IMG/VR virus record: IMGVR_UViG_3300035156_000041
Location: 1 to 64,000 of that record
Strand: one strand, 5' to 3'
DNA length: 64,000 bases
Origin: a virus
A model generated the notes under the pieces. It made no database searches. It had not been told where the DNA came from and was given only the letters and a program-made list of their open reading frames with translations. The position numbers and the translations under genes were made by a program. Every line of letters starts with the position of its first letter. Positions within the stretch are counted from its first letter, which is position 1. Below are positions 1 to 57,215 of this stretch, one piece after another.

Positions 1-360
1 GCCTGCCTCAGCAAAACCTCGTGAAAAATTCGTGGCACTGAGTTTGGCGAGTTTCCACCATTCTTCGGGCGTGTACATTCCATTGATAAGCTCGTTGTGT
101 TCTCCGCCAGCTTGCATGCCTGACTGGTTTTTGCCAAATTGCACAGGGATGCCCGATAATTGCTTTTCCATTTTGTCGAAAGGAATAGCACGACTACTCG
201 CTGCCGAGTAGGAGAACTGGCGATGCTTCAACTCCTCTGCGTGTACAATGCGAGGATGGTCTACAAGGAATGTAATAATTTCCTTGCCAGCTTCTGAAAT
301 GGAATGCAGCACTACTTCTACACGAATGCCCGCTTTGCCTTCTACGACGATGTTAGTCAT
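1..360 (-). CDS. thyX: ThyX-like flavin-dependent thymidylate synthase (partial)
   Basis: The C-terminal part lies beyond the left edge; about 119 N-terminal residues are visible. The motif KHRQFSYSAASSRAIP matches the ThyX signature (RHRxxSxxxxSxR) in the form seen in phage ThyX-like proteins. It is followed by VQFGKNQSGMQA, also typical of that group. ThyX makes dTMP from dUMP using FAD, NADPH and methylene-tetrahydrofolate. The gene overlaps the one upstream by ATGA at 357-360, so they are translationally coupled. Whether it is catalytically complete cannot be judged from half the protein. Confidence 0.8.
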   Translation of the reverse strand, partial: MTNIVVEGKAGIRVEVVLHSISEAGKEIITFLVDHPRIVHAEELKHRQFSYSAASSRAIPFDKMEKQLSGIPVQFGKNQSGMQAGGEHNELINGMYTPEEWWKLAKLSATNFSRGFAEAG

Positions 361-5745: not shown

Positions 5746-5901
5746 GTGGCACGGACAAACATTAATGAAGGTGACTTTGTAGACTACACACGAGAGGGGC
5801 TTATTAATTACATATTGCATCTGCGTGCTGCGATTGATGTGTATGATGGGTATCTGTCGATGGAAGAATTTGAAGCTTATAACCTTACTTTGGATTTTTA
5901 A
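5746..5901 (+). CDS. small hypothetical protein, 51 aa (GTG start)
   Basis: 51 residues. The GTG at 5746 is preceded by AGGAGAA at 8 nt; no in-frame ATG gives a better start. Acidic (MARTNINEGDFVDYTREG), helical in the middle. First gene after the 5683 promoter; a single base separates its stop from the next gene's start region. Confidence 0.65.
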   Translation: MARTNINEGDFVDYTREGLINYILHLRAAIDVYDGYLSMEEFEAYNLTLDF

Positions 5902-5902
5902 T

Positions 5903-7003
5903 ATGAAAAACATGAAATTTAAAGTAGACAGCCCGGAGCAGTCTGAGCGTCTTGTGAGTCTGTTGGAAAAGCTAGGGTATGTGGAAGAAGACTGGGAATG
6001 TGGCACTACTGATGTATGTATTCTTTGCTACGAGGCTGGCACGTACGGTTATTACGCAAAAGGCCCCTTTGAAAGTTATTCATGTGTTGCCACAGACACC
6101 GCAGCCTTCCTAGCCGCTCACCAGCCTGCTCCTGCACAAGAACCTGAAACTTACTTCGGTGATGACGCTAAGGAGCTTGGCTGGTTCCCCAACACAGGCA
6201 CTATGCCGGACTTGCCTGCTGGGACGGAGATTGACATTGTCTTTAGCGGACACGAAGATGGTAAGTTTAACACCTATAGTGACTTTGATAAATTCTACTG
6301 GTATCTGTCAGGCAGCGCATCTGACATCACTAAATGGCGCTTCCATCGGCTAGAAGTTGCGGAGTATTTCAAGCAGCCTAAGACCACCTCCACGTACACG
6401 CCAACAGTTGAAGATATTGGTAAAAGGGTGGGCCACATCTACCACGAGGATGGCTCCGTAGAAATCGGTGTGGTTAATGACAGCACAACCCTCTTCGAAG
6501 GCATCGCAGCTAGTAAGGAGTTTACGAAGGAGGCTGCACATGAGGCTTTCGCTGGTGTGAAACGCCTAGACGCACAAGGTAATCAACGTTTGGATTGTGC
6601 TACTTATGACGACGAGGGTAACATGCTGAACCTGAAGGTTGGCAGCTTGAGCAGTCTTGGTGAACCTGTGGGGCACTTGGTAACAGGTACTATTGATTGT
6701 GCTTCTCCAGACGCCGCGTTCACATGGAAGGTTGATTCAGACGGGCACGTAAAAGGTAATAGCTTTTCGGAACAGCCTAAGCGTAACAAATACATGCGTG
6801 AGATTAAGCCGGGTGTGTTCTGTGATGTCTACGACCTCTTGCGAGCCTTCAACGTAACTGATGGAGCACTTGCACATATGGTTAAGAAGTGCTTGGCTGT
6901 CGGCCAACGCGGTCATAAGGACGCTACGGAGGATTACAAGGATATCGTAGCTTCAGCACAACGAGCACTTGAACTCCACCTTGAATGGAAAGACACACAA
7001 TGA
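5903..7003 (+). CDS. 366-aa phage protein with conserved C-terminal domain
   Basis: Start set at the ATG at 5903, directly after the previous stop. The first ~190 residues are acidic and beta-rich with a possible regulatory fold. The C-terminal ~60 residues (VYDLLRAFNVTDGALAHMVKKCL, then GQRGHKD) match a short conserved module seen in many phage early proteins, usually written as YDVLxAFxVTxPAxxHAIKKLLxAGxRGxKD. The role of that module is not established. ATGA overlap with the next gene indicates coupling. Confidence 0.8.
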   Translation: MKNMKFKVDSPEQSERLVSLLEKLGYVEEDWECGTTDVCILCYEAGTYGYYAKGPFESYSCVATDTAAFLAAHQPAPAQEPETYFGDDAKELGWFPNTGTMPDLPAGTEIDIVFSGHEDGKFNTYSDFDKFYWYLSGSASDITKWRFHRLEVAEYFKQPKTTSTYTPTVEDIGKRVGHIYHEDGSVEIGVVNDSTTLFEGIAASKEFTKEAAHEAFAGVKRLDAQGNQRLDCATYDDEGNMLNLKVGSLSSLGEPVGHLVTGTIDCASPDAAFTWKVDSDGHVKGNSFSEQPKRNKYMREIKPGVFCDVYDLLRAFNVTDGALAHMVKKCLAVGQRGHKDATEDYKDIVASAQRALELHLEWKDTQ

Positions 7004-14563: not shown

Positions 14564-14760
14564 ACTGCCCTCAACTGTTCGACCAGCACTAAAATTCGAT
14601 TGCACAAATCATCTCTACTGGCATCTTGAACAGATATACCCTGCCGAACACCTTTTAAATTTTTCTTGCACCATGCCACAGAACAGTGTAAACTGTCTGC
14701 AATATCTTCATACTTCCAGCCTTGCAAGCGAAGCTGCATAGCCGCTGCTTTATCAATCAT
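14560..14760 (-). CDS. small helix-turn-helix protein coupled to the endonuclease
   Basis: 66 residues from the ATG at 14760 (AAGGA 8 nt upstream); the frame extends upstream without a site. The core QLRLQGWKYEDIADSLHCSVAWCKKNL is a classic HTH of the sigma4/resolvase type. Translated together with the endonuclease (ATGA), so it is likely its regulator or specificity partner. The palindrome in its promoter (14800-14809) is a candidate operator. Confidence 0.72.
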   Translation of the reverse strand: MIDKAAAMQLRLQGWKYEDIADSLHCSVAWCKKNLKGVRQGISVQDASRDDLCNRILVLVEQLRAV

Positions 14761-14794
14761 GTTCAGTATCCTTAGTGATCTTCTCGATATACTA

Positions 14795-14823
14795 ATTATA
14801 CTATATAGTGTTATTTTTGTCAA
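14795..14823 (-). promoter_or_regulatory. consensus sigma70 promoter with palindrome in the spacer
   Basis: Minus strand: -35 TTGACA, 17-bp spacer, -10 TATAAT, preceded by AATAAAGC like the early promoters. The spacer contains the perfect 10-bp palindrome ACTATATAGT (14800-14809), a possible operator for the HTH protein it drives. Confidence 0.75.
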
Positions 14824-14864
14824 GCTTTATTCAAGGAAATAATTAGAGGCATTACTCTAAAATA

Positions 14865-14918
14865 GCTTATGCTGTTGCTGGGCTTATCTTGGAGATGAAG
14901 GAGGAAGGATTGGTTTGA
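14865..14918 (+). pseudogene. duplicated 3' end of the 13363-13737 gene
   Basis: Reads AYAVAGLILEMKEEGLV and stop. Over 39 bases it matches 13681-13719 at 32 positions, with most changes silent or conservative. It lies on the far side of the inverted endonuclease cassette and has no start. Best explained as the original 3' end left behind when the cassette inserted with its own copy, or as a relic of a tandem paralogue. Confidence 0.65.
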
Positions 14919-15455
14919 AATAGGGAGAGTATCCCGGTGATAAAGACACGATTAGCCACGAACAGATTTGGGACAATAGGAATGTTGTCTTTATTCTGGC
15001 GTGGCTAGTTTTCGTTTTATCGTAGGGAGATTTTGGGGATTCGTTGTATAGCGTTTTTGAGCCGGATTTCAAAAACTTCAGGAAATTTGGCCTTATTTCT
15101 TAGGGCAAGACATCCTCCCAGCCCCTCGCGCCATCAAACATCTGGCCGTAATGTCCCAAAAGCATCGAAGTTGTCAGACTGTCATCGAAAAAGCATTCAG
15201 GCAGGGTTGGATTAGTTGATCTGCCCCGGCAACCAATGAATCTAGTATCGCATACCTTTTCAGGCTTTGCAAGCACTTTCTAAGATAATTTCAATTTTAT
15301 TTTACGTGCCTTCCTGGAGAACGCCGGGGCAATCTATCTTGTAGATGTCGTCCTGTTCGGCTGGCATGAGATGAAATGTATAGCCCGTCCTGGCGAACAC
15401 ATAGGCAATTTCTGAAATACTCTTGTGACGTTCTGAAATTGTTCTTAAATATGGC
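14919..15455 (+). other. non-coding stretch
   Basis: No supported gene. Weak frames exist on both strands (60 codons plus, 73 codons minus) but lack ribosome binding sites, and the minus one crosses the 15456 promoter. Probably decayed sequence next to the endonuclease insertion. Confidence 0.4.
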
Positions 15456-15484
15456 TTGACAAGCTTTGCCGTGTAGCGGATACT
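15456..15484 (+). promoter_or_regulatory. sigma70 promoter
   Basis: -35 TTGACA, 17-bp spacer, -10 GATACT; 38 nt before the ATG at 15522. Confidence 0.72.
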
Positions 15485-15521
15485 GAATCTATCGAAACGA
15501 CGCACATAGGAGAAACAAGCC

Positions 15522-15719
15522 ATGAAAGCCTTACAAGCTTATTCCCAGGGTTACGAAGCATTCCGCACGTACTGCCTTCGCTACGGTAAGATTGTCCGCG
15601 ACACGAAGCGCGAAGACGACACAGGAAGCCATCGTAAGTATGTAGTAGCAATCGACGGCTGGAATGCACATATCAGCATGCACAATGGCGTTACCATCAG
15701 CGCAGCACTCGCAAATTAA
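15522..15719 (+). CDS. hypothetical protein, 65 aa
   Basis: 65 residues, basic and aromatic N-terminal half, beta-rich C-terminus. TAGGAG upstream. Own promoter. No family. Confidence 0.72.
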   Translation: MKALQAYSQGYEAFRTYCLRYGKIVRDTKREDDTGSHRKYVVAIDGWNAHISMHNGVTISAALAN

Positions 15720-19677: not shown

Positions 19678-19899
19678 ATGAACATTCATTCTGTAAAATG
19701 TATTCGACAGCCAGCTTTCCGTGATATGATTGTGGGAGAAGTGTATAATTACACGGTGGGAGAGCTTGCAGTGGAATATTGGCTGGCTGGGGAGGGCTTT
19801 CCTGTTAAGGCTCATATGCCGATTTATGCATGGGCAAGTGCTGTGCATGTGGGGGAATTGATTCCGTTGAGTGACTTACCAGAAGATGAGGAAGAATGA
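19678..19899 (+). CDS. hypothetical protein, 73 aa
   Basis: 73 residues, acidic C-terminus (SDLPEDEEE). No good ribosome binding site before the ATG, but promoter placement and coupling to the next gene support it. Function unknown. Confidence 0.65.
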   Translation: MNIHSVKCIRQPAFRDMIVGEVYNYTVGELAVEYWLAGEGFPVKAHMPIYAWASAVHVGELIPLSDLPEDEEE

Positions 19900-20201
19900 T
19901 TATGTACACACGATTTATGGATATGGCTAGTGGTGGTAGTACTAAAGTTGCTGGCAAAGAGTACATTTACATTGAACTGCCTGAAGACGAAGCTATACAG
20001 GTGTTTGAGCAAATGTTTAATCATAATCCCTACAATGTCACTTGTGATTGCTGCGGAGGAGATTACAGCATCCGCGATTATGACACAATTGAAGATGCTA
20101 CAAATTATGATCGTCGGTCTAGTACTCAGTCTGTAGAGGACTACTGCAAGCGTGATGATGTGTTGGTTATTCGTAAGAGCGACATTGTGGAAGACTGCTA
20201 G
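19896..20201 (+). CDS. acidic protein with possible zinc-binding CxCC
   Basis: 101 residues. Start taken at 19896 (ATGA overlap); the ATG at 19902 is better spaced from GAGGAAG and is an alternative. Contains a CDCCGG motif that could bind zinc together with the C-terminal cysteines, amid many Asp/Glu/Tyr. No family. Confidence 0.7.
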   Translation: MIMYTRFMDMASGGSTKVAGKEYIYIELPEDEAIQVFEQMFNHNPYNVTCDCCGGDYSIRDYDTIEDATNYDRRSSTQSVEDYCKRDDVLVIRKSDIVEDC

Positions 20202-20256
20202 CGCCCTAACAAGCCTATAAATCTTTGCACACAAGCGGGAGGGCTGGGAGGCTTAT

Positions 20257-20700
20257 ACGGCGAACTATAATGTACCGCGAGGCGAACGTCTGATTCTTAC
20301 TGTTCATCGACCTTCGGTACGTTGTGCCCACAAATATAGTCTTGTCTTGCTGCGCAAGCCGCTTTGCACGGTACATCGTAGAACCGAAGGCAAGGACAGC
20401 GAAGCTGGCCGCAGTCTTGAGCGTAGCGAAAGATTCTATGCCTTGGTCGTTTGAGTTACCGCTACGCTTCGCACGAGGCGTAAGCCGATGTGCTCACAGT
20501 GGAGACAGATAGCCGGTAGGCAGATAGAGAACAAGGGTGTTGCTGTTGTTCTTGACTTGCTTAGAGGAGCTTACACGCGTCTTTTAAATCTTCTTTTCTT
20601 TTTCTCTTTTCTTCTATTACTACGTTAGATGGCGGTATATCATGTATCGCGGCGCGGTATATCAACTACCGTATGGCGAATGTCTAGCCTTCGTAATGTG
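20257..20700. other. repeat-rich non-coding region, candidate replication origin
   Basis: No gene between 20202 and 20757. Seen directly: GCGGTATATCA twice at 20632-20642 and 20654-20664 (22 bp apart, about two helical turns); an imperfect 28-bp direct repeat at 20257-20284 and around 20630-20656; a shared GGCGAA(C/T)GTCT element near 20281 and 20673; a perfect 9-bp inverted repeat AGCGTAGCG/CGCTACGCT (20420-20428, 20460-20468); and a nearly pure C/T tract at 20588-20617. It sits directly before a ribbon-helix-helix gene and an initiator-like gene, so an iteron-type origin is the leading idea. Confidence 0.5.
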
Positions 20701-20757
20701 GCCGTCTAGTCATATCCTAAACGTATCACAGACCATCCTGTAACACTTATTTAAACC

Positions 20758-20786
20758 TTGCTTTTTAGCACACTTCATGCTATAAT
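20758..20786 (+). promoter_or_regulatory. sigma70 promoter of the ATGCTATAAT class
   Basis: -35 TTGCTT, 17-bp spacer ending AGCACACTTCATGC, -10 TATAAT. The spacer closely matches those at 31569 and 47738, defining a distinct promoter class. Drives the RHH and replication genes. Confidence 0.75.
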
Positions 20787-20817
20787 GGGTGTTGATAGAG
20801 CAAAACTAAGGCATATC

Positions 20818-21006
20818 ATGCAATACAACCTAAACACAGATGTCGCTATCTGGCTTGACGCTGTGAGGGGCAAACTCTCACGACAGCAGTATATCACAAT
20901 CGTTCTACGCCAGCAAATGCAACAGCAGTCTACTATTACCACTCAGGATATCTATGACCAAACTAACATCCGCAATGGAGCTATTGACGCTCTTTCACAA
21001 AACTGA
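20818..21006 (+). CDS. ribbon-helix-helix protein (CopG/Arc-like)
   Basis: 62 residues from the ATG after AAGGCATATC. MQYNLNTDVAIWLDAVRGKLSRQQYITIVLRQQM fits the RHH fold: a short beta strand, helix, the turn GKLSRQQY, and a second helix. Such proteins bind DNA as dimers and often repress their own promoter. Overlaps the initiator-like gene by 53 bp, which recalls plasmid copG-rep pairs. Assignment is from pattern only. Confidence 0.62.
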   Translation: MQYNLNTDVAIWLDAVRGKLSRQQYITIVLRQQMQQQSTITTQDIYDQTNIRNGAIDALSQN

Positions 21007-21580
21007 TTTCTCAGTTCTCAACACTACAGTTTACGCACATAAGCTGTTGTCTGTTCTCCTAACATTTGTCAACCATGATGTATCGCAAGGATACAAAGCA
21101 TGGCCCGCTACGGAGCTACTAATGCGCCGCACAGGGATGGGGAAAACTTCACTCTCAAAGTATCGCCAGGGTTTGCTAGATGCTAACCTGTTATTGCAGA
21201 TCGACCAGAATGCAGGGCCGGGGCGTAGTTGCGTCTATTACGTCAACGCGCCACTTATCAAGAGGCTTGCGGCTGAATCTGGTGCTACAGTGTCAGAACG
21301 TCCAGTGGGTGAGGCTGTATTGCCTCCTACTAGACCAGTTCACAAGCGTAACACAACAGGCTTGCTAAATCAGCCTGTAAAGCCTTTAATTGATGAGTTT
21401 GATATCGACCCATGGGCAATGCCTGAAGTCGTCTCTAAGGTGCCTCAAATAGAGGTTAAACAGGATTCTACAGCTAACGCCGACGGTAGCCCTATGTTCT
21501 TTAAGAATGGCATGCGCCGTTATACGTGGGCTGATGTGATGCCATCTATTCAGGAGGCTAGCCAAGATGAGCCGTTCTGA
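20954..21580 (+). CDS. replication-initiator-like winged-helix protein
   Basis: 208 residues. Residues ~25-105 look like a winged helix-turn-helix of the lambda O / phage replication-protein type: LSVLLTFVNHDVSQGYKAWPATELLMRRTGMGKTS, then KYRQGLLDANLLL and a beta wing with RSCVYYV. The rest is Pro/Asp-rich and probably disordered or an interaction region (as in O, which recruits the helicase loader), ending RRYTWADVMPS. Start at 20954 (AGGA 6 nt upstream). It lies just after an origin-like tract. The stop overlaps an inserted GIY-YIG gene. Confidence 0.68.
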   Translation: MTKLTSAMELLTLFHKTDFSVLNTTVYAHKLLSVLLTFVNHDVSQGYKAWPATELLMRRTGMGKTSLSKYRQGLLDANLLLQIDQNAGPGRSCVYYVNAPLIKRLAAESGATVSERPVGEAVLPPTRPVHKRNTTGLLNQPVKPLIDEFDIDPWAMPEVVSKVPQIEVKQDSTANADGSPMFFKNGMRRYTWADVMPSIQEASQDEPF

Positions 21581-22271
21581 AGTGCTGCACGAAGACTACT
21601 ATGTTTATTTGCACAGGCGCAATGACACAAACGAAGTTTTTTATGTTGGTAAGGGCAGGGGAAATAGAGCTTGGAACAAGTCCCATAGATCATTCTGGTG
21701 GCGAAGTATAGTTAATAAATGTGATTACACGGTGGAGATAGAGGAGAAATGTCTCTCCGAACAAAGTGCATTTGATCTTGAAATAGAGCTAATAAAGTTT
21801 TACAAAGAGAATAACCATCCTTTGTGCAACATGACTCTCGGTGGTGACGGGGCATCTGGTTGCATACGTAGTGCAGAAACATTAGCTAAGATGTCTGAAT
21901 CGAGGAAAAGATTCAATGTAAATAATCCCATAACAGAGGCTCAAAAAGAGCATATGAGTAAAATAAAGAAAGCACAATGGGCTGTGGAATCTGATAAACT
22001 GACCACGAGGAACATTATAGAGTGCTCTAACGGTATGGTGTTTACAGGAACAACGTCAGTAGTTGCATGGCTGAAATGTAATGGATACCCCACAGCAAAT
22101 ATGTCTGGTATAAGTAGGTGTTGTTCGGGTGTACAAGAAACCGCTTATAACCTTAAATGGTGGTACATAGGAGTAAATAATAGGGGAGTGGTCACCATGA
22201 TTAAGCAGCCTACACTGGAGGGTATTGTTATGAAGTGGTATCATGCACACAATAAGGAGGTAACAGTATGA
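21567..22271 (+). CDS. GIY-YIG homing-type endonuclease with NUMOD repeats
   Basis: 234 residues. N-terminal GIY-YIG nuclease: YYVYLHRRNDTNEVFYVGKGRGNRAW with Arg/His catalytic context, FDLEIELIKFY carrying the catalytic Glu, and CNMTLGGDGASG. Then nuclease-associated DNA-binding modules: ETLAKMSESRK, AQKEHMSKIKK, and a NUMOD/IENR-like end (IIECSNGMVFTGTTSVVAWL ... ISRCCSG ... YNLKWWY). The last ~25 residues after NNRGVV look foreign to the family. It overlaps the replication gene by 14 bp and the next gene by ATGA, so it was inserted neatly between two coupled genes. Confidence 0.87.
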   Translation: MSRSEVLHEDYYVYLHRRNDTNEVFYVGKGRGNRAWNKSHRSFWWRSIVNKCDYTVEIEEKCLSEQSAFDLEIELIKFYKENNHPLCNMTLGGDGASGCIRSAETLAKMSESRKRFNVNNPITEAQKEHMSKIKKAQWAVESDKLTTRNIIECSNGMVFTGTTSVVAWLKCNGYPTANMSGISRCCSGVQETAYNLKWWYIGVNNRGVVTMIKQPTLEGIVMKWYHAHNKEVTV

Positions 22272-24570: not shown

Positions 24571-24819
24571 ATGTTCAACGCTACCGCTGCTAAATACCTT
24601 CGCTGGATTGCTACACAGAACGGCAGCATGGTGCAAGTGTTTGCGGCTAATGCTGAAGGTGGTTTCCTGAGCGTAGCTACTAAGCACTACGCTAACGACA
24701 CTATCACGGCAGAGGGTGTCAGTAAGGAAGAGGCAGTATGCGAAGCTTTAATTCAAGCTGGCCTGACGTTTGATGAATCCTTCGATCTGGCATTGTCGGC
24801 TAAGGTGGAGTGGCAGTAA
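24571..24819 (+). CDS. hypothetical protein, 82 aa
   Basis: 82 residues, Ala-rich, acidic. Ribosome binding site weak (AAAGAAA). Regular mixed alpha/beta pattern. No family. Confidence 0.73.
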   Translation: MFNATAAKYLRWIATQNGSMVQVFAANAEGGFLSVATKHYANDTITAEGVSKEEAVCEALIQAGLTFDESFDLALSAKVEWQ

Positions 24820-24854
24820 GCACAGCCCGGGAGGGCTACTAACAAGGGGATTGC

Positions 24855-25040
24855 ATGCACAGCGTGACATTGATAGATGAAGAAAACGACGTAATAGCAC
24901 TTGCACGTAAGCTTGATTGCATAGATGAGCTATGTTCTTTAGAGGACTACCACCCTGACTATGGTAAAGTGGTTCCATACTGGAAGCCTAGATGGTTCGC
25001 GTTAGCACTGTTCAAAGAGCTAAAGAGTAACAACACATAG
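24855..25040 (+). CDS. small hypothetical protein, 61 aa
   Basis: 61 residues, acidic N-terminal half with aromatic KPRWFALALFKEL end. AAGGGG site before the ATG; strong terminator follows. Last gene of the rightward early block. Confidence 0.7.
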   Translation: MHSVTLIDEENDVIALARKLDCIDELCSLEDYHPDYGKVVPYWKPRWFALALFKELKSNNT

Positions 25041-25050
25041 CAATACCATA

Positions 25051-25075
25051 GAGCGCCCTTAGAGGCGCTTTTATT
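25051..25075 (+). terminator. intrinsic terminator
   Basis: AGCGCC, loop CTTAGA, GGCGCT, then TTTATT. Closes the early region. Confidence 0.85.
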
Positions 25076-25848
25076 ATATCTGTTACACATATACCAAATC
25101 CGCTGCACGATGGCCCTGTAGGGCTGCTATGGTTCGCCTATGAGGCCGTCTGTATGGTACTGCTACAGGGTGGGCTGTATAGGGCACAGTGCAAGGGGTC
25201 GCAGTAGGCTATCACCTGTGTGTGTAAGCCTGTGGATAATTATGCATAAGTACACCTGCTATGGTATGTAGTACACTATTGTATAGCGTGCTATCTATTA
25301 AGTAACAATCGATGCCTTCTTTCTTAGTTCACTATAATGGAATGCTGTGCAGTATAGTGGATAGTATTACTCCGTAGCAACCCCTATCAGTACCATCTAG
25401 CGATGTCTCCCAAGCAACCTTTCTTAGCAGTAATAGTGTGGAATAGTTGCTTGTGGGGCAATGAAAGGTGCTAGTGTGACAATGAATAGACACGTAGCAG
25501 CCACCTAGCAGCGCCATCGAGTAATACCCTACAACAGGCTGAGAGCTAGTATCCATGCGGGTTACAGCCTGGTAGGGCCATAGGCAGTCATGCGCCAGGG
25601 TGATAACGATATCTCTTAAGTGCCATCTCTGATCCGAATGACGGTGAGATTCGACCAGGCGTTAAAAAGCCCTAGGAGGCCGTAGGAGCGTCGAAGGGCT
25701 TAGAAGGTAGGGTGATGAGGGAAGGCTTGTGATTGTTCAATGGCGCTATATTTTAACGCAGGAAATGGGGGTGTTTTGTACCTTTTATCCAGTGTTTAAC
25801 TATGCAGGCGTGTATTAGCAAAACTGAGAAAGTAAACACCTAAATATG
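25076..25848. other. long non-coding region with a perfect DnaA box
   Basis: About 770 bp with no supported gene. TGTGGATAA at 25231-25239 is a perfect DnaA box (reverse of TTATCCACA) and is followed at once by TTATGCATA. Around it are many imperfect repeats of GCTATGGT-, GTATGGTA- and CTACAGGG-type words and short palindromes. It could be a second origin, a host-factor binding region or a transcription boundary. An endonuclease gene ends at its right border. Confidence 0.5.
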
Positions 25849-27015
25849 TTAGCTAGGTTCCCAGTGGATAAGTGCATCATAAGCCTTGTCGGAAATAAAA
25901 TTTTCATAAGATTTTGCAAGTTTTTTAACATAGTCCATACGATATTTCTTGTAAGCAAACTGTGCGTCTCCCTTGGTCGGGTATGTCCCTAAAAAAATTG
26001 GAAGATTTTCTGCTTGAAATTTCACATCAAACCCTTGACTAGTCTTGCGAACCACTGTAGAGTCACCTTTATTGATGATGGCATAGTTGATTACGTTAGG
26101 TACAAACACACAAGACTCAGCACAGTAGATTTTGCAGTTTGGGGAGAGTAAATCCTTCTCCAGTACGTAACCCATACCCCAACCGGGTTGCTGTACAGCC
26201 CAGTCGCAGAACTTTTGAGCATCTGAAAACTCATCTGAGATAGTCACACCGTTATATGTATTGTGAAACTTCTGAAAGCTGCCGTCTTTCTTAGCACGTT
26301 GAGTCACGTTGTTATGGAGCTTACCAAGCCGAGTCTGGATGAACTTATCTCCCATCTGGAATCTTAACACCCAGTTACCTTGACGATCCTTGAAATCAAT
26401 ATGCAAGACATTCTTACTTACTACAATATCTTCTGGAGAGAACTCCATAAGAGCGGCTGAGGCATTGTCCAAGCAAGCTTTAGTGTACTGCTCACGCGAC
26501 TCTTTAAAAGCTTCCCTAGAGGCAGCTAAGGCAGCCTTACGAGCCTCAAGACCTTCTCGGTACTCCTTCATTGCCTTGGCCCTAGCCTCACGCTTGATAC
26601 GAAACTTAGTCTGCTCTGCCTCGAACTTATCCTTTGCAATTTTATCAATACGTTTCCGCTCTGTCCGCTCGGTGTCCTTAATAGCTTTGTCTGTTACATA
26701 GCCACACAGTGCAGCATCTTTTTGGACAGTTGTAATATTTCCAGTGTCTTCAAAAATAATACTGACAGCCTTATTGTTCTTACATTCTAAAATTTTAAAA
26801 TTTCCGTAGGCGCTGGAACGCAGCGTCTCCCCTACAGAAAGTTCTCGACGTGCGCTTACGTTGCCACTTAGGAAGGCATTACCTGAGACAGTTTTAGTGT
26901 CGCCTGTATCCTCAAATTTTACGAGCAGCCTACCTCCACGATCACCTTTGTGAACTTCTAACACTTCCATCCAACCACAGTTTACACCCTCACTACGTTG
27001 TCCAATGGTAATCAT
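25849..27015 (-). CDS. AP2/HNH-like phage endonuclease
   Basis: 388 residues. Residues ~10-110: two small beta-barrel repeats (VKFEDTGDTKTV and IIFEDTGNITTV). Residues ~110-180: long charged helix, probably coiled coil. Residues ~215-330: the pattern FHNTYNGVTISDEFSDAQKFCDWAVQQPG, then LEKDLLSPNCKIYCAESCVFVP-x-x-IN, typical of phage endonucleases allied to AP2/HNH proteins. Residues ~335-385: GFDVKFQAENLPIFLGTYPTKGDAQFAYKKYR, an AP2-like DNA-binding module. Classic HNH residues are not obvious. Own promoter upstream; orientation opposite to neighbours marks it as a mobile gene. Confidence 0.78.
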   Translation of the reverse strand: MITIGQRSEGVNCGWMEVLEVHKGDRGGRLLVKFEDTGDTKTVSGNAFLSGNVSARRELSVGETLRSSAYGNFKILECKNNKAVSIIFEDTGNITTVQKDAALCGYVTDKAIKDTERTERKRIDKIAKDKFEAEQTKFRIKREARAKAMKEYREGLEARKAALAASREAFKESREQYTKACLDNASAALMEFSPEDIVVSKNVLHIDFKDRQGNWVLRFQMGDKFIQTRLGKLHNNVTQRAKKDGSFQKFHNTYNGVTISDEFSDAQKFCDWAVQQPGWGMGYVLEKDLLSPNCKIYCAESCVFVPNVINYAIINKGDSTVVRKTSQGFDVKFQAENLPIFLGTYPTKGDAQFAYKKYRMDYVKKLAKSYENFISDKAYDALIHWEPS

Positions 27016-27178: not shown

Positions 27179-27826
27179 ATGTCTAAAGTATTCGGCTACA
27201 TGAGGGTTAGCCAGTCGTCCCAGACGGTAGAGAACCAGAAGATTGAACTCCTTGCCAGCCACATGACAATCACTGAGTGGTATGCAGATGAAGGCGTTAG
27301 TGGAAGCATCCCTCAAATGGAACGTAAGGGCTTTAGCGAGATGCGCCAAGCCATGTCAGAGGGCGACACACTGGTAGTAGCGAAGCTCGACAGATTGGGC
27401 CGTAACGCCTACGATGTAATGGGCACAGTGAATCACTTAAAGGAAGACGGCATCAAGATTGTTGTGCTCCAGCTTGGGCAGATGGACGTAACCTCCCCCG
27501 CAGGTAAGATGATGTTGACAATGCTTGCGGCTGTCGCTGAGATGGAGATGGACGTTCTGAAAGAGCGCATCCACGCAGGGCTGATCCGTGCTAAATCTGA
27601 AGGTGTTATTATGGGCGCTCCAAACAAGATTGACCCTGAGACGTTACAAGCAATGTGTAGTGACAAAGCATGTGGAGCCACACTAGACCAGATAGCTGCA
27701 AAGTATGACGTAGCTCGTGCCACAGCAGCACGTACCATCAGCCGTTGGAAGGACAACATCGAAGGCTACACATTCGAGTTCCATAGCAAGGCTCGGTACA
27801 CTGAAAAGAAACGTGCAGCACAATGA
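27179..27826 (+). CDS. small serine recombinase (resolvase/invertase family)
   Basis: 215 residues. Catalytic N-terminal domain: GYMRVS with nucleophile Ser11, VENQKIEL, VAKLDRLGRN carrying the active-site arginines, then the dimer helix AAVAEMEMDVLKERIHAGL and GVIMGAPNKI. C-terminal HTH at ~165-190 (GATLDQIAAKYDVARATAARTI). Normal length for Hin/Gin/Tn3 resolvases. It could resolve multimers, invert a segment or move DNA; its crossover site is not evident. CAGGAG site, own promoter. Confidence 0.92.
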   Translation: MSKVFGYMRVSQSSQTVENQKIELLASHMTITEWYADEGVSGSIPQMERKGFSEMRQAMSEGDTLVVAKLDRLGRNAYDVMGTVNHLKEDGIKIVVLQLGQMDVTSPAGKMMLTMLAAVAEMEMDVLKERIHAGLIRAKSEGVIMGAPNKIDPETLQAMCSDKACGATLDQIAAKYDVARATAARTISRWKDNIEGYTFEFHSKARYTEKKRAAQ

Positions 27827-28772: not shown

Positions 28773-28930
28773 TGATCCTCCCCTTTCCACTCACCAACAT
28801 GGCATAGCCAATCCTTCATAACCTTGTATTCAAGATAACAAGGAACATTACAACGTGTGCTAAAATAATGCCGAAGCTCATTAAAGAGTTGTTGGCGCTC
28901 TAGCTCCTCCACTGATTTAGGCTCTTTCAT
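28769..28930 (-). CDS. small hypothetical protein, 53 aa
   Basis: 53 residues (MKEPKSVEELERQQLFNELR...), charged, two cysteines in CNVPC. ATGA overlap downstream and TGATG overlap upstream. The next gene's ribosome binding site lies in its last codons. Confidence 0.65.
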   Translation of the reverse strand: MKEPKSVEELERQQLFNELRHYFSTRCNVPCYLEYKVMKDWLCHVGEWKGEDQ

Positions 28931-29082
28931 CACAGCCTCCAAGTATTGTCAACATCTGGCACAAATGTCATAGCTACTGTTAATCCTCCTATATTTTGTT
29001 CACGGTAACGCACGAGCCAGCCTCCAGGTACTCGTGTACGTTCTGTGCAATTGTCAATATGTTGCCAAATTAGTGTGCTCAT
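28930..29082 (-). CDS. small hypothetical protein, 50 aa
   Basis: 50 residues, beta-like (TRVPGGWLVRYREQNIGGLTVAM). Both ends overlap neighbours (TGATG, ATGA). No family. Confidence 0.65.
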   Translation of the reverse strand: MSTLIWQHIDNCTERTRVPGGWLVRYREQNIGGLTVAMTFVPDVDNTWRL

Positions 29083-29231
29083 TGTGAAGCCTTAATAGTG
29101 TAGTAAATCATTGTAGCTACAAGTATTCCTGAAATAGCTAAAAAGATGTGAGGGGTTAAAAATAAGATTGGCATGACAACTGTTCCAACAAGCCCGTAGG
29201 GTGTCACGCGCCAGCGATAACATCTGCACAT
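29079..29231 (-). CDS. two-pass small membrane protein, 50 aa
   Basis: 50 residues, basic N-terminus (MCRCYRWR) and hydrophobic segments ~13-26 and ~29-43. GGAGG site before the ATG. ATGA overlap downstream. Unknown function. Confidence 0.62.
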   Translation of the reverse strand: MCRCYRWRVTPYGLVGTVVMPILFLTPHIFLAISGILVATMIYYTIKASQ

Positions 29232-29285
29232 ACAACCTCCAATTAGTAAAGCCCACAAGCCTTGTGAGCTAATGGGCTTAGTGTA

Positions 29286-29993
29286 TTACTCTTGTGGAGC
29301 CTTGTCAACTGCTTTAACAGCAGGTTTGCTAACTTTCTTAGCAGCGGGTTTACGAGCTTTCTTGACAGGCTTAGGGTTTTGCAGTTCTTCCATCTTAGCG
29401 GCCAGCCAGTCGTTGCGCTGCTCATGACGGTCAATCCAGTCATTCGCCGTCAACCATACATCCTGTCCCTTGATAAGACCTTCAATCTCGTCAGTGCTCA
29501 AAAAACCGGCATAAGTACGACGCACCCAATCTGGCATAAACTTGTTATAGAACTGCGTCGATGCTGCAAATTCGTTGTACGCGCCGCCTGTACCAAGGCT
29601 ACCAGAGTGAATCAAGGAATTAAATCCTTCTGACAACTCAAACGACAGAGAGTTGAGCAGGATAGCACTAGCAGCGGATGAACAGTTGCCCGTAGCTACA
29701 GTGTGGATGTGTGCCTTGCAGCCAATCATAGCGTGGATAAAAGCGTCCGTAGCGTCCATGTTGCCACCAGGGGACTGCAAACGAATTTCAATCTCGTCAT
29801 CCTCGCCAGCCATGTTCATAGCCTGGATAGCGTATTCAAACTGGCTAACATCTTCAATCTGACGATTCAAGTTAATGATGTATGTGCCAGAACGACTTGG
29901 CAGGTAGGAAACATCGAAGGGTCCGCAAGCATCGTCATCACGGCGGGACGCTTTAGGTTCGGTTTGGGAAGAGATTTTTGGTGAATTAAACAT
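29286..29993 (-). CDS. ClpP-like serine protease
   Basis: 235 residues from the ATG at 29993 (AAGGAACAAC). ClpP fold markers: IRLQSPGG (74-77 oxyanion/beta region), GNCSSAASAILL with predicted nucleophile Ser106, and NSLIHS with His129. The C-terminal ~35 residues are Lys/Ala/Pro-rich and probably disordered. It is separate from the S49 head protease at 35955, so the phage encodes two ClpP/SppA-fold enzymes. It may act with host Clp ATPases or in head maturation; the partner is unknown. Next to the phoH-like gene. Confidence 0.82.
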   Translation of the reverse strand: MFNSPKISSQTEPKASRRDDDACGPFDVSYLPSRSGTYIINLNRQIEDVSQFEYAIQAMNMAGEDDEIEIRLQSPGGNMDATDAFIHAMIGCKAHIHTVATGNCSSAASAILLNSLSFELSEGFNSLIHSGSLGTGGAYNEFAASTQFYNKFMPDWVRRTYAGFLSTDEIEGLIKGQDVWLTANDWIDRHEQRNDWLAAKMEELQNPKPVKKARKPAAKKVSKPAVKAVDKAPQE

Positions 29994-54500: not shown

Positions 54501-57215
54501 AAGAGTCGCATGAGCAAGCTGATTGATCCTAAAGACTTCAACGAAGCTCAAGCACAACTCACCAACCTTGCAGAAACACAGCGCAAGATGTGGGTGGGTG
54601 TTGGTGAGTCGATTAGTAAGTCCCTTGGAGATGCTTTTGGTAGCTCCGGTAAAGCTGCTGGTGCAATGGTGCAGGCTTACGTAGCTGCTAGCAACACTAG
54701 CACGAAAATGGATCAGGACAAACAAGCTGCCTTGCAAGAGACACAGTCGATGTATGACGCTTTCGGTGTTAGCCAAGAGAACACTAACAAAGCTCTGGCA
54801 GATATTAACGCAGAGTATGCGTCGAAAGAGGCCACTGCTCGTATCAAATCTTATGGGGATATGGCAGGAGCTGCACAAGGATTCTTCAAAGAAGGCTCCA
54901 CAGGCTACAAAGTTTTGGGCGCGGCTGAGAAAGCATTCCGTGTTATGGAGCTTGCCGAGGCAGTTAAAAACTTTGTTGTTAAGAGCGGCTTGGTAACAGG
55001 CTACTTGGCAGTGAAGGTAGGTGCAGACGCAGCAGGAGCAGCTTCTGGAGCAGCTTACACTATCTTGGATGTGGCTCAAGCAGGTATTCGTGCAACAGCT
55101 AACGGTATTGCGGCTATTGCAAGCTCTATGATGGCTCTCCCATTCCCTTTCAATCTTGCAGCAGGGGCAGCTACAGCAGCAGCATTGCTGGCAGTCGGTG
55201 TGAAGGTGTTTGGAGGAATGTCAGGTGGCGGTGCTGATGTGTCTGAGCAACGTCAGAAAACTCAAGGCACAGGCTCCGTCCTCGGAGATGACGACGCCAA
55301 ATCAGCCTCTATCGTAAACAGCCTTTCAATCCTTGAAAAGAACTCTGGTGTTGGCTTAGTACAAACTAACAAGATGGTGGGCTATCTGAAAACTGTCTCT
55401 GACAGCATTGGCAACCTATCCTCCTTGATTGTGCAATCCACAGGAATTACAGGTAAAACTGGTGTTGGTTCTAACGGAAGCGCTTATGACTTCGCATCAT
55501 CCATTGACAAGATGTTTGGTGGATTAATCAGCGGCACTATTGGTAAGATTGCCAACTTTATCTTCGGCGGTAAAACCACAGTCACTGATACGGGCTTCAC
55601 AGCAGCTAAAACTACAGTTGGTGCTGGCACATTCAATGCAAGCCAGTATTCAGATATGAATAGAGAAGGTGGCCTGTTCAGTAGCGACAAGCAGTACACT
55701 GATAGTACGTCGCTCGGCTCTGACGCAAACGGACAGTTCTCGTTAATCGTACAGAGCATGGCTTCCACCTTGAAAGAGGCTAGCAAGGCTCTCGGTATTA
55801 GTGGAGATGCCTTTAATGCCAAGCTGAATAGCTTTGTAATTGACATTGGCAAAATCTCCCTGAAGGACATGACAGGCGCTGAGATTCAAGACGCTCTGAC
55901 AGCAGTGTTTAGCAAGCTGGGCGATGATATGGCTAAGTTTGCCTTCACAGACTTCACACAATTCCAAAAGGTTGGTGAAGGAATGCTGGAGACAATCACA
56001 CGTGTTGCTACAGATGTGATGGGTGTGAAGGATGTCTTTGCAGTGTTGGGCAAATCGTTCGAGCTTACAGGAACTGCTGCTGCCACCGTGGCTGAAAACC
56101 TTATCAGTGCAGCAGGTAGTCTGGACACGTTGAATACGAACACGCAATACTTCGTAGACAACTTCCTGACAGAAGCTGAGAAGATGGGGCCAATTACGGC
56201 TTCTGTGCAGAACGCAATGGCTCAGCTTGGTTATTCGTCTGTTACGACAATGGATCAGTTTAAAGGGCTGGTTCGCTCGCTAGACTTGACGGACCCTGCA
56301 TCACAGACATTGTACACAACTTTGTTGGCATTAGCTCCACAGTTTAAAGAATCGGCTGACTACGCAACAAGTTTAGCAGAGGGCACTGTAACATTGACAG
56401 CCGCACAAACTAAGCTGTTGGACGCTGTGACGAAAGCTAAGAGCACTCTGCAAGATAGCTACGATTCGGAAAGCTCAGCTATCCAGAGTGTGATTGATAA
56501 AACTAAATCCTTTATCGCCACGCTCAGCAGCTACAAGGACAGCTTGAAAACTGGTGCTGACAGTCCTCTGACGAACATCCAGAAATATCAAGAGGCTAAG
56601 AAGCAGTTTGACGCTACAGCCGTTGCAGCAGCTAATGGTGACGCTACAGCGCAGGCAAACTTTACAGCGGCTTCTACTACATTGCTGTCAGCTTCTAAAG
56701 TAGTGAACGCATCAGGTCAGGCTTATACAGATGACTACAACATGGTGCAGACAGCTATTGATAAGCTGATGGGCAGTTCGACAGTGCAAGTGGACGTTGC
56801 TCAGGCTAGCTTGGATGCTCTTAATAAGCAAGTGCAAGGGCTTATCGATGTGAACAAGTCGGTGATGTCTGTTACAGATGCTATCACAGCTTTGCAATCA
56901 GCCATTATTGCTGGCTCTGTTGGGGGTTTGTCTAACTCGCAGATGGACACTACGTACACTCCTACGGCTTCGCAAGTGGCAGCAGCTACGCCTTCAAGCA
57001 GTAGCAATACAACAAACTTTGCTACGGCACAACCTGTTGTAGTGGCTATTCAGGCTAACACTGAAGCCATCCTTGCTCAGACGGCAGCACAGTCTGCACA
57101 AGCTGGTGTCATGGTTGGTGCTATGTATGACTCATCTGATGACAATGCCTCGACAGTGACAACAGGTTTGGCAGGACTTATCAACAAGGCAGCAGCAAAG
57201 GTTGCCTTAGTTTAA
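51537..57215 (+). CDS. tape measure protein (TTG start)
   Basis: 1892 residues, the longest gene here. TTG start with AAAGGAG 9 nt upstream. N-terminal coiled coil; TP901-type core at ~140-400 (VENTLEGIRVKGGETV, GYTTENYSRIADVIAKTAAVS, GVSLAALSNLGIQGSAAGTSLKN). Hydrophobic segments at ~131-160, ~528-580 and ~1181-1230. Long Ala/Gln/Lys coiled coils at ~580-1050. At about 0.15 nm per residue the tail would be roughly 280 nm, an inference from the ruler rule. Confidence 0.95.
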   Translation: MDITTLAISVTSTGIKEASAAIGGLSTSAANAEKRILALTAATQQLSTVNSASAAAMAGYMAKLQQQAALLQSIQASSSGAVGSTQALAAAMALLATSLTVLNQQLQNHQQRQRASNEAMDEGKAAARGLSGSLGALWVTYGAFTGMAAGLAIGVALKGIVTVGSDVENTLEGIRVKGGETVASITAIRESVLSLGQGIYGPQQVAKAFETMILAGLNAKQALTGISDALNLATIGGTSIEKSAYTLVQVGTAMGYTTENYSRIADVIAKTAAVSMSSVESLSEAFKAGSAVGKLYGVSLTDIGVSLAALSNLGIQGSAAGTSLKNFYKELASESEKVVSTLASMKLTPASFKDSEGNYKSLLQVVSTLSTGLDGLTGAAQKNAIANLSNERGMKTIVELLDLYRKKSEDATDADGKRVTMFQYLNDQVVQSFGYAAIGSAQMSLTVENQFKSVGNTLKTVFVEAFQAVSPQLSVVASEMKSAFASPEFLTGVTNLAVGVAKFTVAVAENIPLVVKLFEGLLAYKAIGFMVGVFTSIGESVLVLTTAFEALTVASVALQVGMGVLIIALSAAAAAYTYFKAERDAADLSANQKNAIQYSKDYADALDLEAKRLNDQIKLMQNGKSARDAETQSIYAQNLALAGQKRDSAVSEAYTNVAKTKSALNDTSGEDGDAYLMARAKKLQEYNGAVKAATAVRAQADAEYNRVEKSQQAVMAAAASKEQLRLQQEKDAAAANKSKGTGTLGGGPDKAAISDAYGAQIQDFQNQINAQKKLLEQAKAETTSAYKQGLIGERGVIEENYTAEVTAANAIIKLLQSKVDTAVGAENKRQAAMKYTGQIQAEQANIEAAEAARNRANATWMVDSETMVQKAQAATYTAQGKYADAYEAEFGAKRAVRIAGIQADLATEVNAERKAMEQKVLFALEAEQAAGKSQAQEKENLKSFMDLSNTVRNSLKGVQTATEGEGIGEMFTAASKASKVLSENMVELKSRMSKLIDPKDFNEAQAQLTNLAETQRKMWVGVGESISKSLGDAFGSSGKAAGAMVQAYVAASNTSTKMDQDKQAALQETQSMYDAFGVSQENTNKALADINAEYASKEATARIKSYGDMAGAAQGFFKEGSTGYKVLGAAEKAFRVMELAEAVKNFVVKSGLVTGYLAVKVGADAAGAASGAAYTILDVAQAGIRATANGIAAIASSMMALPFPFNLAAGAATAAALLAVGVKVFGGMSGGGADVSEQRQKTQGTGSVLGDDDAKSASIVNSLSILEKNSGVGLVQTNKMVGYLKTVSDSIGNLSSLIVQSTGITGKTGVGSNGSAYDFASSIDKMFGGLISGTIGKIANFIFGGKTTVTDTGFTAAKTTVGAGTFNASQYSDMNREGGLFSSDKQYTDSTSLGSDANGQFSLIVQSMASTLKEASKALGISGDAFNAKLNSFVIDIGKISLKDMTGAEIQDALTAVFSKLGDDMAKFAFTDFTQFQKVGEGMLETITRVATDVMGVKDVFAVLGKSFELTGTAAATVAENLISAAGSLDTLNTNTQYFVDNFLTEAEKMGPITASVQNAMAQLGYSSVTTMDQFKGLVRSLDLTDPASQTLYTTLLALAPQFKESADYATSLAEGTVTLTAAQTKLLDAVTKAKSTLQDSYDSESSAIQSVIDKTKSFIATLSSYKDSLKTGADSPLTNIQKYQEAKKQFDATAVAAANGDATAQANFTAASTTLLSASKVVNASGQAYTDDYNMVQTAIDKLMGSSTVQVDVAQASLDALNKQVQGLIDVNKSVMSVTDAITALQSAIIAGSVGGLSNSQMDTTYTPTASQVAAATPSSSSNTTNFATAQPVVVAIQANTEAILAQTAAQSAQAGVMVGAMYDSSDDNASTVTTGLAGLINKAAAKVALV

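Follow-up and report, generated by a model that had tools for sequence, protein, structure and literature searches.

For many large virulent phages that encode a self-sufficient replisome, little is known about how the first origin of replication is selected. The question is raised by the interval 20257-21580 of the phage DNA analysed here, for which a preliminary description proposed a plasmid-like replication module, with an origin, a copG-like gene and a rep gene in this order. It was therefore asked what this locus does, and which of the known systems it resembles.

The phage genome and the non-coding tract

The window, that is the whole stretch of 64,000 nucleotides, comprises bases 1-64000 of an IMG/VR virus record of 86,314 bp. 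The final 127 bases of the record are a direct repeat of its first 127 (window 1-127 versus L003 7188-7314); therefore, the genome is complete, assembled as a circle of about 86.2 kb. The terminase matches those of KPP10-like Pseudomonas phages at about 35-37%, and the host of the module is a lytic-type tailed phage. The plus strand carries the structural genes at 33-63 kb, and the minus strand a replication block at 66-86 kb. This block contains a family-A DNA polymerase (phrog_17, PF00476), a primase-helicase (phrog_239), a polymerase exonuclease subunit, an exonuclease and thymidylate synthase, and a phage SSB with the C-terminus DDDAPF is also encoded in the genome. Since the polymerase, primase-helicase, exonuclease and thymidylate synthase are phage-encoded, the phage, judged by its gene content, supplies its own replisome (polymerase, primase-helicase and SSB). 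An HNH-like ORF directly adjoins the polymerase gene (L003 282-2240 (-) and L002 15704-16285 (-)), and more HNH-like genes are located within or near the replication block (L002 11219-11758 and L002 1509-2153).

The features of the tract preceding the two genes of the module are as follows.

20202-20817, no strand: non-coding tract, candidate origin region, no ORF with a positive coding score
20260-20278, plus: degenerate third dyad unit GCGAACTATAATGTACCGC, 14/19 identical to unit 1
20270-20277, minus: CGGTAYRT core site, from the motif scan
20315-20322, plus: CGGTAYRT core site, from the motif scan
20369-20376, plus: CGGTAYRT core site in an arm of the inverted repeat 20265-20277/20369-20381
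20589-20615, plus: pure pyrimidine tract of 27 nt, candidate unwinding element, the longest pyrimidine or purine run in the genome
20632-20650, plus: dyad iteron 1 GCGGTATATCATGTATCGC, 7/9 pairs complementary
20654-20672, plus: dyad iteron 2 GCGGTATATCAACTACCGT, 6/9 pairs complementary, 22 bp after iteron 1

The coding score is negative in all six frames across 20202-20817, which rules out a hidden gene and agrees with the earlier statement that the tract is gene-free. The claimed repeats with a 22-bp spacing were also found, as the window contains GCGGTATATCA at two positions only, 20632 and 20654. Only two loci in the 64 kb have an 11-mer repeated within 60 bp, the other being at 56609, inside a tail gene, and such a pair arose in 4 of 300 simulated tracts of 618 bp. 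Each copy of GCGGTATATCA forms the left arm of a 19-bp dyad. The joint dyad symmetry was matched in 0.125% of trials in which the left arm was kept and the rest randomised (p ~0.001). The third unit at 20260, taken alone, is within chance (0-3 expected per 64 kb at the same mismatch level). The description of the repeats as iteron-type thus holds for two strict dyads, but there are only two, accompanied by the weak copy at 20260 and single half-sites. The CGGTAYRT core has six sites genome-wide, five of which fall at 20270-20662, within 393 bp. It is the sole pattern of its class so clustered, with no equivalent in 20 simulated sequences; the pattern was picked after seeing the data, and the simulation control spans the whole pattern class.

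The pyrimidine tract noticed earlier proved to be longer than any run in all 60 simulations, in which the maximum was 20 nt; the second-longest pyrimidine or purine run in the genome measures 14 nt. The run ends 16 bp before the dyad repeats, and the A+T content around it (20575-20624) is 0.70. Longer imperfect and inverted repeats, which had been reported as well, are present in 20260-20400, but their length and match are modest (13 nt, 85%), and shuffled sequences fold as well as the tract does. Among nine gene-poor gaps, 20202-20817 alone has short direct repeats at a close (22 bp) spacing. In seven of the eight others, no direct repeats of 12 nt or more recur within 150 bp; the gap at 28790-29290 has two two-copy repeat pairs with a spacing of 85-105 bp. 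Two gaps of about 0.9 and 1.0 kb (14605-15522 and 24819-25849) show neither a clear coding signal nor closely spaced direct repeats. The anatomy of the tract is real and unusual: the dyad pair, the core-motif cluster and the pyrimidine tract are each beyond chance, and all lie in one non-coding stretch of 400 bp.

The overlapping genes and the SSB-like tail

The tract is followed by a promoter-like site and the genes listed below.

20758-20786, plus: promoter-like TTGCTT-17-TATAAT with a perfect extended -10 TGCTATAAT (20778-20786), read directly from the sequence
20818-21006, plus: ORF of 62 aa, ribbon-helix-helix-like by eye (YNLNTDVAIWLDAVRGKLSRQQYITIVLRQQM), positive coding score
20954-21580, plus: winged-helix initiator-like protein of 208 aa with a wHTH at 21053-21193 (PF13730, RP-C, PHROG 270/678/8540/186)
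21560-21577, plus: SSB-C-terminus-like tail SQDEPF of the 208-aa protein, acidic, ending in P-F
21567-22271, plus: GIY-YIG homing-endonuclease-like gene (phrog_314, 6e-19), low codon score per codon

The promoter-like site scores under the cut-off of the consensus scan and does not constitute independent evidence. A TAGCA-N7-TGCTA dyad in its spacer (20766-20782), considered as an operator, is short enough to occur by chance. The gene order and the overlap were as first described, with the ORF at 20818-21006 followed by the overlapping gene at 20954-21580. The ribbon-helix-helix identity of the 62-aa product, on the other hand, was not confirmed, as it goes back to a reading by eye. The protein had no match in Pfam or PHROG, with PF01402 and PF03869 negative, and one sub-threshold match to an NCBIfam VapB antitoxin (0.011). 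An AlphaFold2 model from the single sequence (pLDDT 72) has three helices, and the strand of the ribbon-helix-helix fold is absent.

Most of the profiles matched by the 208-aa protein, which has a single winged-helix domain, are those of winged-helix proteins or replication initiators, and the claim of an initiator-like gene is supported by matches that are weak but consistent; all of them are weak, and those to Pfam are under the curated cut-offs. The isolated wHTH domain matched PF13730 (HTH_36, 2.7e-5), the RepC N-terminal domain (RP-C, 4.8e-4) and then DnaD_N (0.23). The PHROG matches with a stated function are 270 (replication initiation, 5e-4), 678 and 8540 (O-like, E 0.011-0.02 for phrog_678) and 186 (DnaD-like loader), along with an excisionase PHROG (0.39). 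PF13730 and phrog_270 each match a single place in the genome, namely the 208-aa gene. Lambda O itself matches phrog_678 at 1.7e-35. BLASTP of the 208-aa protein to lambda O was negative, and its C-terminal half had no O-family match. No Rep_3/RepA domain was found by Pfam or NCBIfam, no match by Pfam to RepA_N, the domain of the PLE and staphylococcal plasmid replicons, in the wHTH region (E up to 10) or the whole protein (E up to 1), and no HUH-type match. Structure prediction, which had been proposed as a check on the 20954 protein, points neither for nor against an initiator, since the single-sequence AlphaFold2 model (pLDDT 51) is too poor to use; Foldseek matches of the single-sequence models are meaningless. 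The GIY-YIG gene overlaps the end of the 208-aa gene and is probably a separate mobile element.

An acidic ending of the SQDEPF type occurs in 2 of the 347 genome ORFs of at least 60 aa, namely the 208-aa protein and the phage SSB (DDDAPF). In KPP10, 254 and Boevelstad, the SSBs belonging to this family have the C-terminus DDDIPF. This is the classical SSB C-terminal hexapeptide, whose partners include many replication proteins, primase among them (PMC5872125). The tail of the 208-aa protein is a possible recruitment contact for the replisome; its recruiting role is putative, the likeness being short and drawn from a single protein. In the relative G003, which has the same terminase, an unrelated small acidic-tailed protein, resembling a T7 gp2.5-type SSB, ends in EELDSAPF (L017 1602-2243), and no homologue of the SSB of the present phage was found in that genome. 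An exchange of the SSB gene between members of the phage group is possible.

Likeness to known origins and distribution in relatives

In ori-lambda, O dimers bind 19-bp inverted-repeat iterons beside an A+T-rich region, which then opens (PMC5043065), and the minimal unwinding unit consists of two iterons and the AT-rich tract (PMC7466680). In the lambda record, the iterons are annotated as 18 bp and their spacing is 20-24 bp. The present tract likewise has phased dyad iterons of 18-19 bp, in two strict copies of 19 bp at a spacing of 22 bp, beside an A+T-rich tract, and the wHTH of the 208-aa protein weakly matches O-like profile families. The differences are also considerable. Two strict iterons lie upstream of the gene here, whereas lambda has four inside it; the protein is without the C-terminal domain of O and ends in an SSB-like tail, absent from the C-terminus of lambda O; the next gene encodes the GIY-YIG endonuclease, with no P-type helicase loader gene adjacent; and the phage has its own primase-helicase. 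From anatomy, ori-lambda appears to be the nearest match, and a protein working like lambda O is a better reading than a plasmid-like one because the repeats are dyads. The 208-aa protein cannot, however, be filed as a member of the lambda O family, given the missing O C-terminal domain, the missing loader gene and the position of the iterons outside the gene.

Iteron plasmids (Rep_3/RepA, RepC of RepABC) also have repeats and an A+T-rich tract beside an initiator gene, and the 208-aa protein has a sub-threshold match to the RepC N-terminal domain. In these plasmids, however, the iterons form a direct array, whereas the present ones are dyads and too few (two exact copies), with no Rep_3 or full RepC match and no plasmid homologue. 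The module differs from the CopG/RepB type of pMV158 in that PF01402 and PF03869 are negative and the initiator is a wHTH protein with no HUH match. The earlier plasmid-like interpretation (ori-copG-rep) is not supported, there being no Rep_3/RepA domain, iteron array, CopG/RepB pair or plasmid homologue to sustain it. The likeness to a T7-type replisome with SSB-C-terminal tails (T7 gp2.5, bacterial SSB) lies in the acidic tail ending in F, as in the phage SSB; here, the tail is also present on the putative origin-binding protein.

No homologues of the 208-aa protein were detected in 50,697 phages, 72,556 plasmids (no match by tblastn), IMG/VR or GTDB genomes, in scans that mostly reach close relatives, and nothing significant was found for the 62-aa protein among phages, plasmids, IMG/VR and GTDB genomes. 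An IMG/VR scan for the iteron pair gave 20 matches, all of them unrelated collagen-like coding repeats. Relatives with the same terminase (72-77%) or primase-helicase (84%) are without the 208-aa gene in both the direct search and the HTH_36 profile search. The relative G004 covers the equivalent of the 2.8 to 30.8 kb interval, yet it has no HTH_36 gene; the profile match is likewise absent from KPP10, phage 254 and the two phages that share the adjacent upstream gene 19896-20201. Since the relatives are without the HTH_36 gene, the module is, as far as these genomes indicate, lineage-specific, apparently acquired as an accessory or exchanged part of a variable early region.

Other genes were also recorded. 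A 392-aa protein (5825-7003) matches PHROG 2452, 35158 and 13223, families of unknown function, over its last 75-90 residues (up to 2e-28); the remainder has no convincing PHROG match, and part of the protein also occurs in G003. A serine recombinase/DNA invertase-like gene (phrog_125, 9e-52) lies at 27179-27826, and a recombinase-like ORF is found in the corresponding part of G004 (L048 3314-4039). The variable early region of G004 encodes a pentapeptide-repeat (ANLSGADLSG) protein (L048 13552-14319).

Replication start or regulation

GC skew, put forward earlier as a check, gave a divided answer. The raw cumulative skew has its turning points near 5 and 65 kb, at the switches in gene direction; therefore, it locates no origin, and as evidence for one it was ruled out because it follows transcription. 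The fourfold-degenerate skew of the plus-strand early genes is -0.13 to -0.18 (C-rich) left of 20.2 kb and +0.14 (G-rich) at 20.8-25.5 kb, and the sign change of this strand-corrected skew across 20.5 kb has a permutation p of 0.03 for a pre-set point. In an unbiased search, the best arc was 19.7-25.8 kb, equalled in 6 of 60 permutations and not significant genome-wide. The strand-corrected change near 20 kb is suggestive at most.

A replication role of the module is probable, and the tract is a candidate origin. The reading as an origin plus an initiator is the best supported part of the preliminary description, backed by the initiator profiles, the SSB-like tail and the position of the dyads next to a tract rich in A+T and pyrimidines. 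More specifically, 20257-21580 may be an O-type, dimer-bound iteron origin with its initiator, served by the replisome of the phage itself, a reading that we place just on the probable side of an even balance. Counting against it, the strict iterons number only two, and relatives that share the phage core do without the module. An O-type initiator is not required by a T7-type replisome.

The main rival, possible though on the unlikely side, is a regulatory cassette in which the 62-aa protein, the 208-aa protein or both would act as early regulators of transcription, with the dyads as an operator cluster and no role in replication. Small wHTH proteins are often regulators, helically spaced dyads are typical operators, and the relatives replicate without the module. 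Moreover, GGCATATCATG, a relative of the CGGTAYRT core, overlaps the start of the 62-aa ORF (20810-20820). The strict dyads, however, are situated about 86 bp upstream of the promoter-like -35 instead of covering it, and the profiles matched are those of initiators and not of MarR, GntR or similar regulators; such a cassette also gives no role to the unique pyrimidine tract and the SSB-like tail.

A further alternative is a captured parasite replicon, that is a satellite or plasmid origin with its initiator, which exploited the replisome of the phage group and is now carried by the phage as an additional origin or a decoy; the GIY-YIG nuclease next to it may target cognate origins. Replication of PLE satellites relies on RepA and semi-palindromic iterons and draws on gene products of ICP1. 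This phage has a polymerase of the Pol I type and a T7-like helicase-primase, and it carries a nuclease whose RepA-like domain is directed at the PLE origin (PMC7145576, PMC8263062). The precedent keeps the alternative alive. The present locus resembles PLE in that its iterons are semi-palindromic and its putative initiator is separate from the T7-like replisome of the phage, and it is a lineage-specific insertion within a variable early region. The module is, however, carried by the phage itself, RepA_N or any other satellite Rep domain is absent, no matching satellite or plasmid DNA was found, and the nuclease resembles an ordinary free-standing homing enzyme (phrog_314), so that capture is considered improbable. 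Least probable of all is that the tract is an ordinary gap between genes, with a non-coding RNA or with repeats due to chance. The genome does have other gaps of 0.5-1 kb, and several short inverted repeats lie within 20300-20500, but both strands of the tract fold like shuffled sequences, an Rfam search gave no match, and the motif cluster and the pyrimidine run exceed the simulations.

For the reading as a replication start, the following sequence of events can be proposed. A promoter at about 20758-20786 would drive expression of the short ORF, which is regulator-like, together with that of the winged-helix protein of 208 aa, whose gene overlaps it. Judging from the dyads and the wHTH, dimers of the latter would sit next to each other on the two 19-bp dyads, at a distance of two helical turns, and may also bind the scattered CGGTAYRT sites. 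By analogy with ori-lambda, this binding would aid the melting of the adjacent A+T- and pyrimidine-rich tract. The SQDEPF tail would then dock on one of the proteins that partner the phage SSB, the primase-helicase or the polymerase being the likeliest. In this way, the phage replisome could assemble at the origin without a loader of the lambda P type; since the T7-like primase-helicase is phage-encoded, a loader may be unnecessary.

Summarizing, the proposal in its full form is that an initiator with a tail like the SSB C-terminus recruits the phage polymerase and primase-helicase, with no helicase loader involved, to an origin with lambda-like dyad iterons, as a swappable module acquired by one lineage; stated with all these parts, it is tentative and rather doubtful. 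If it is true, large virulent phages of this kind can exchange compact origin-recognition modules with a defined DNA target, and mimicry of the SSB tail would be a simple, loader-free way to bring a ring helicase-primase to the origin.
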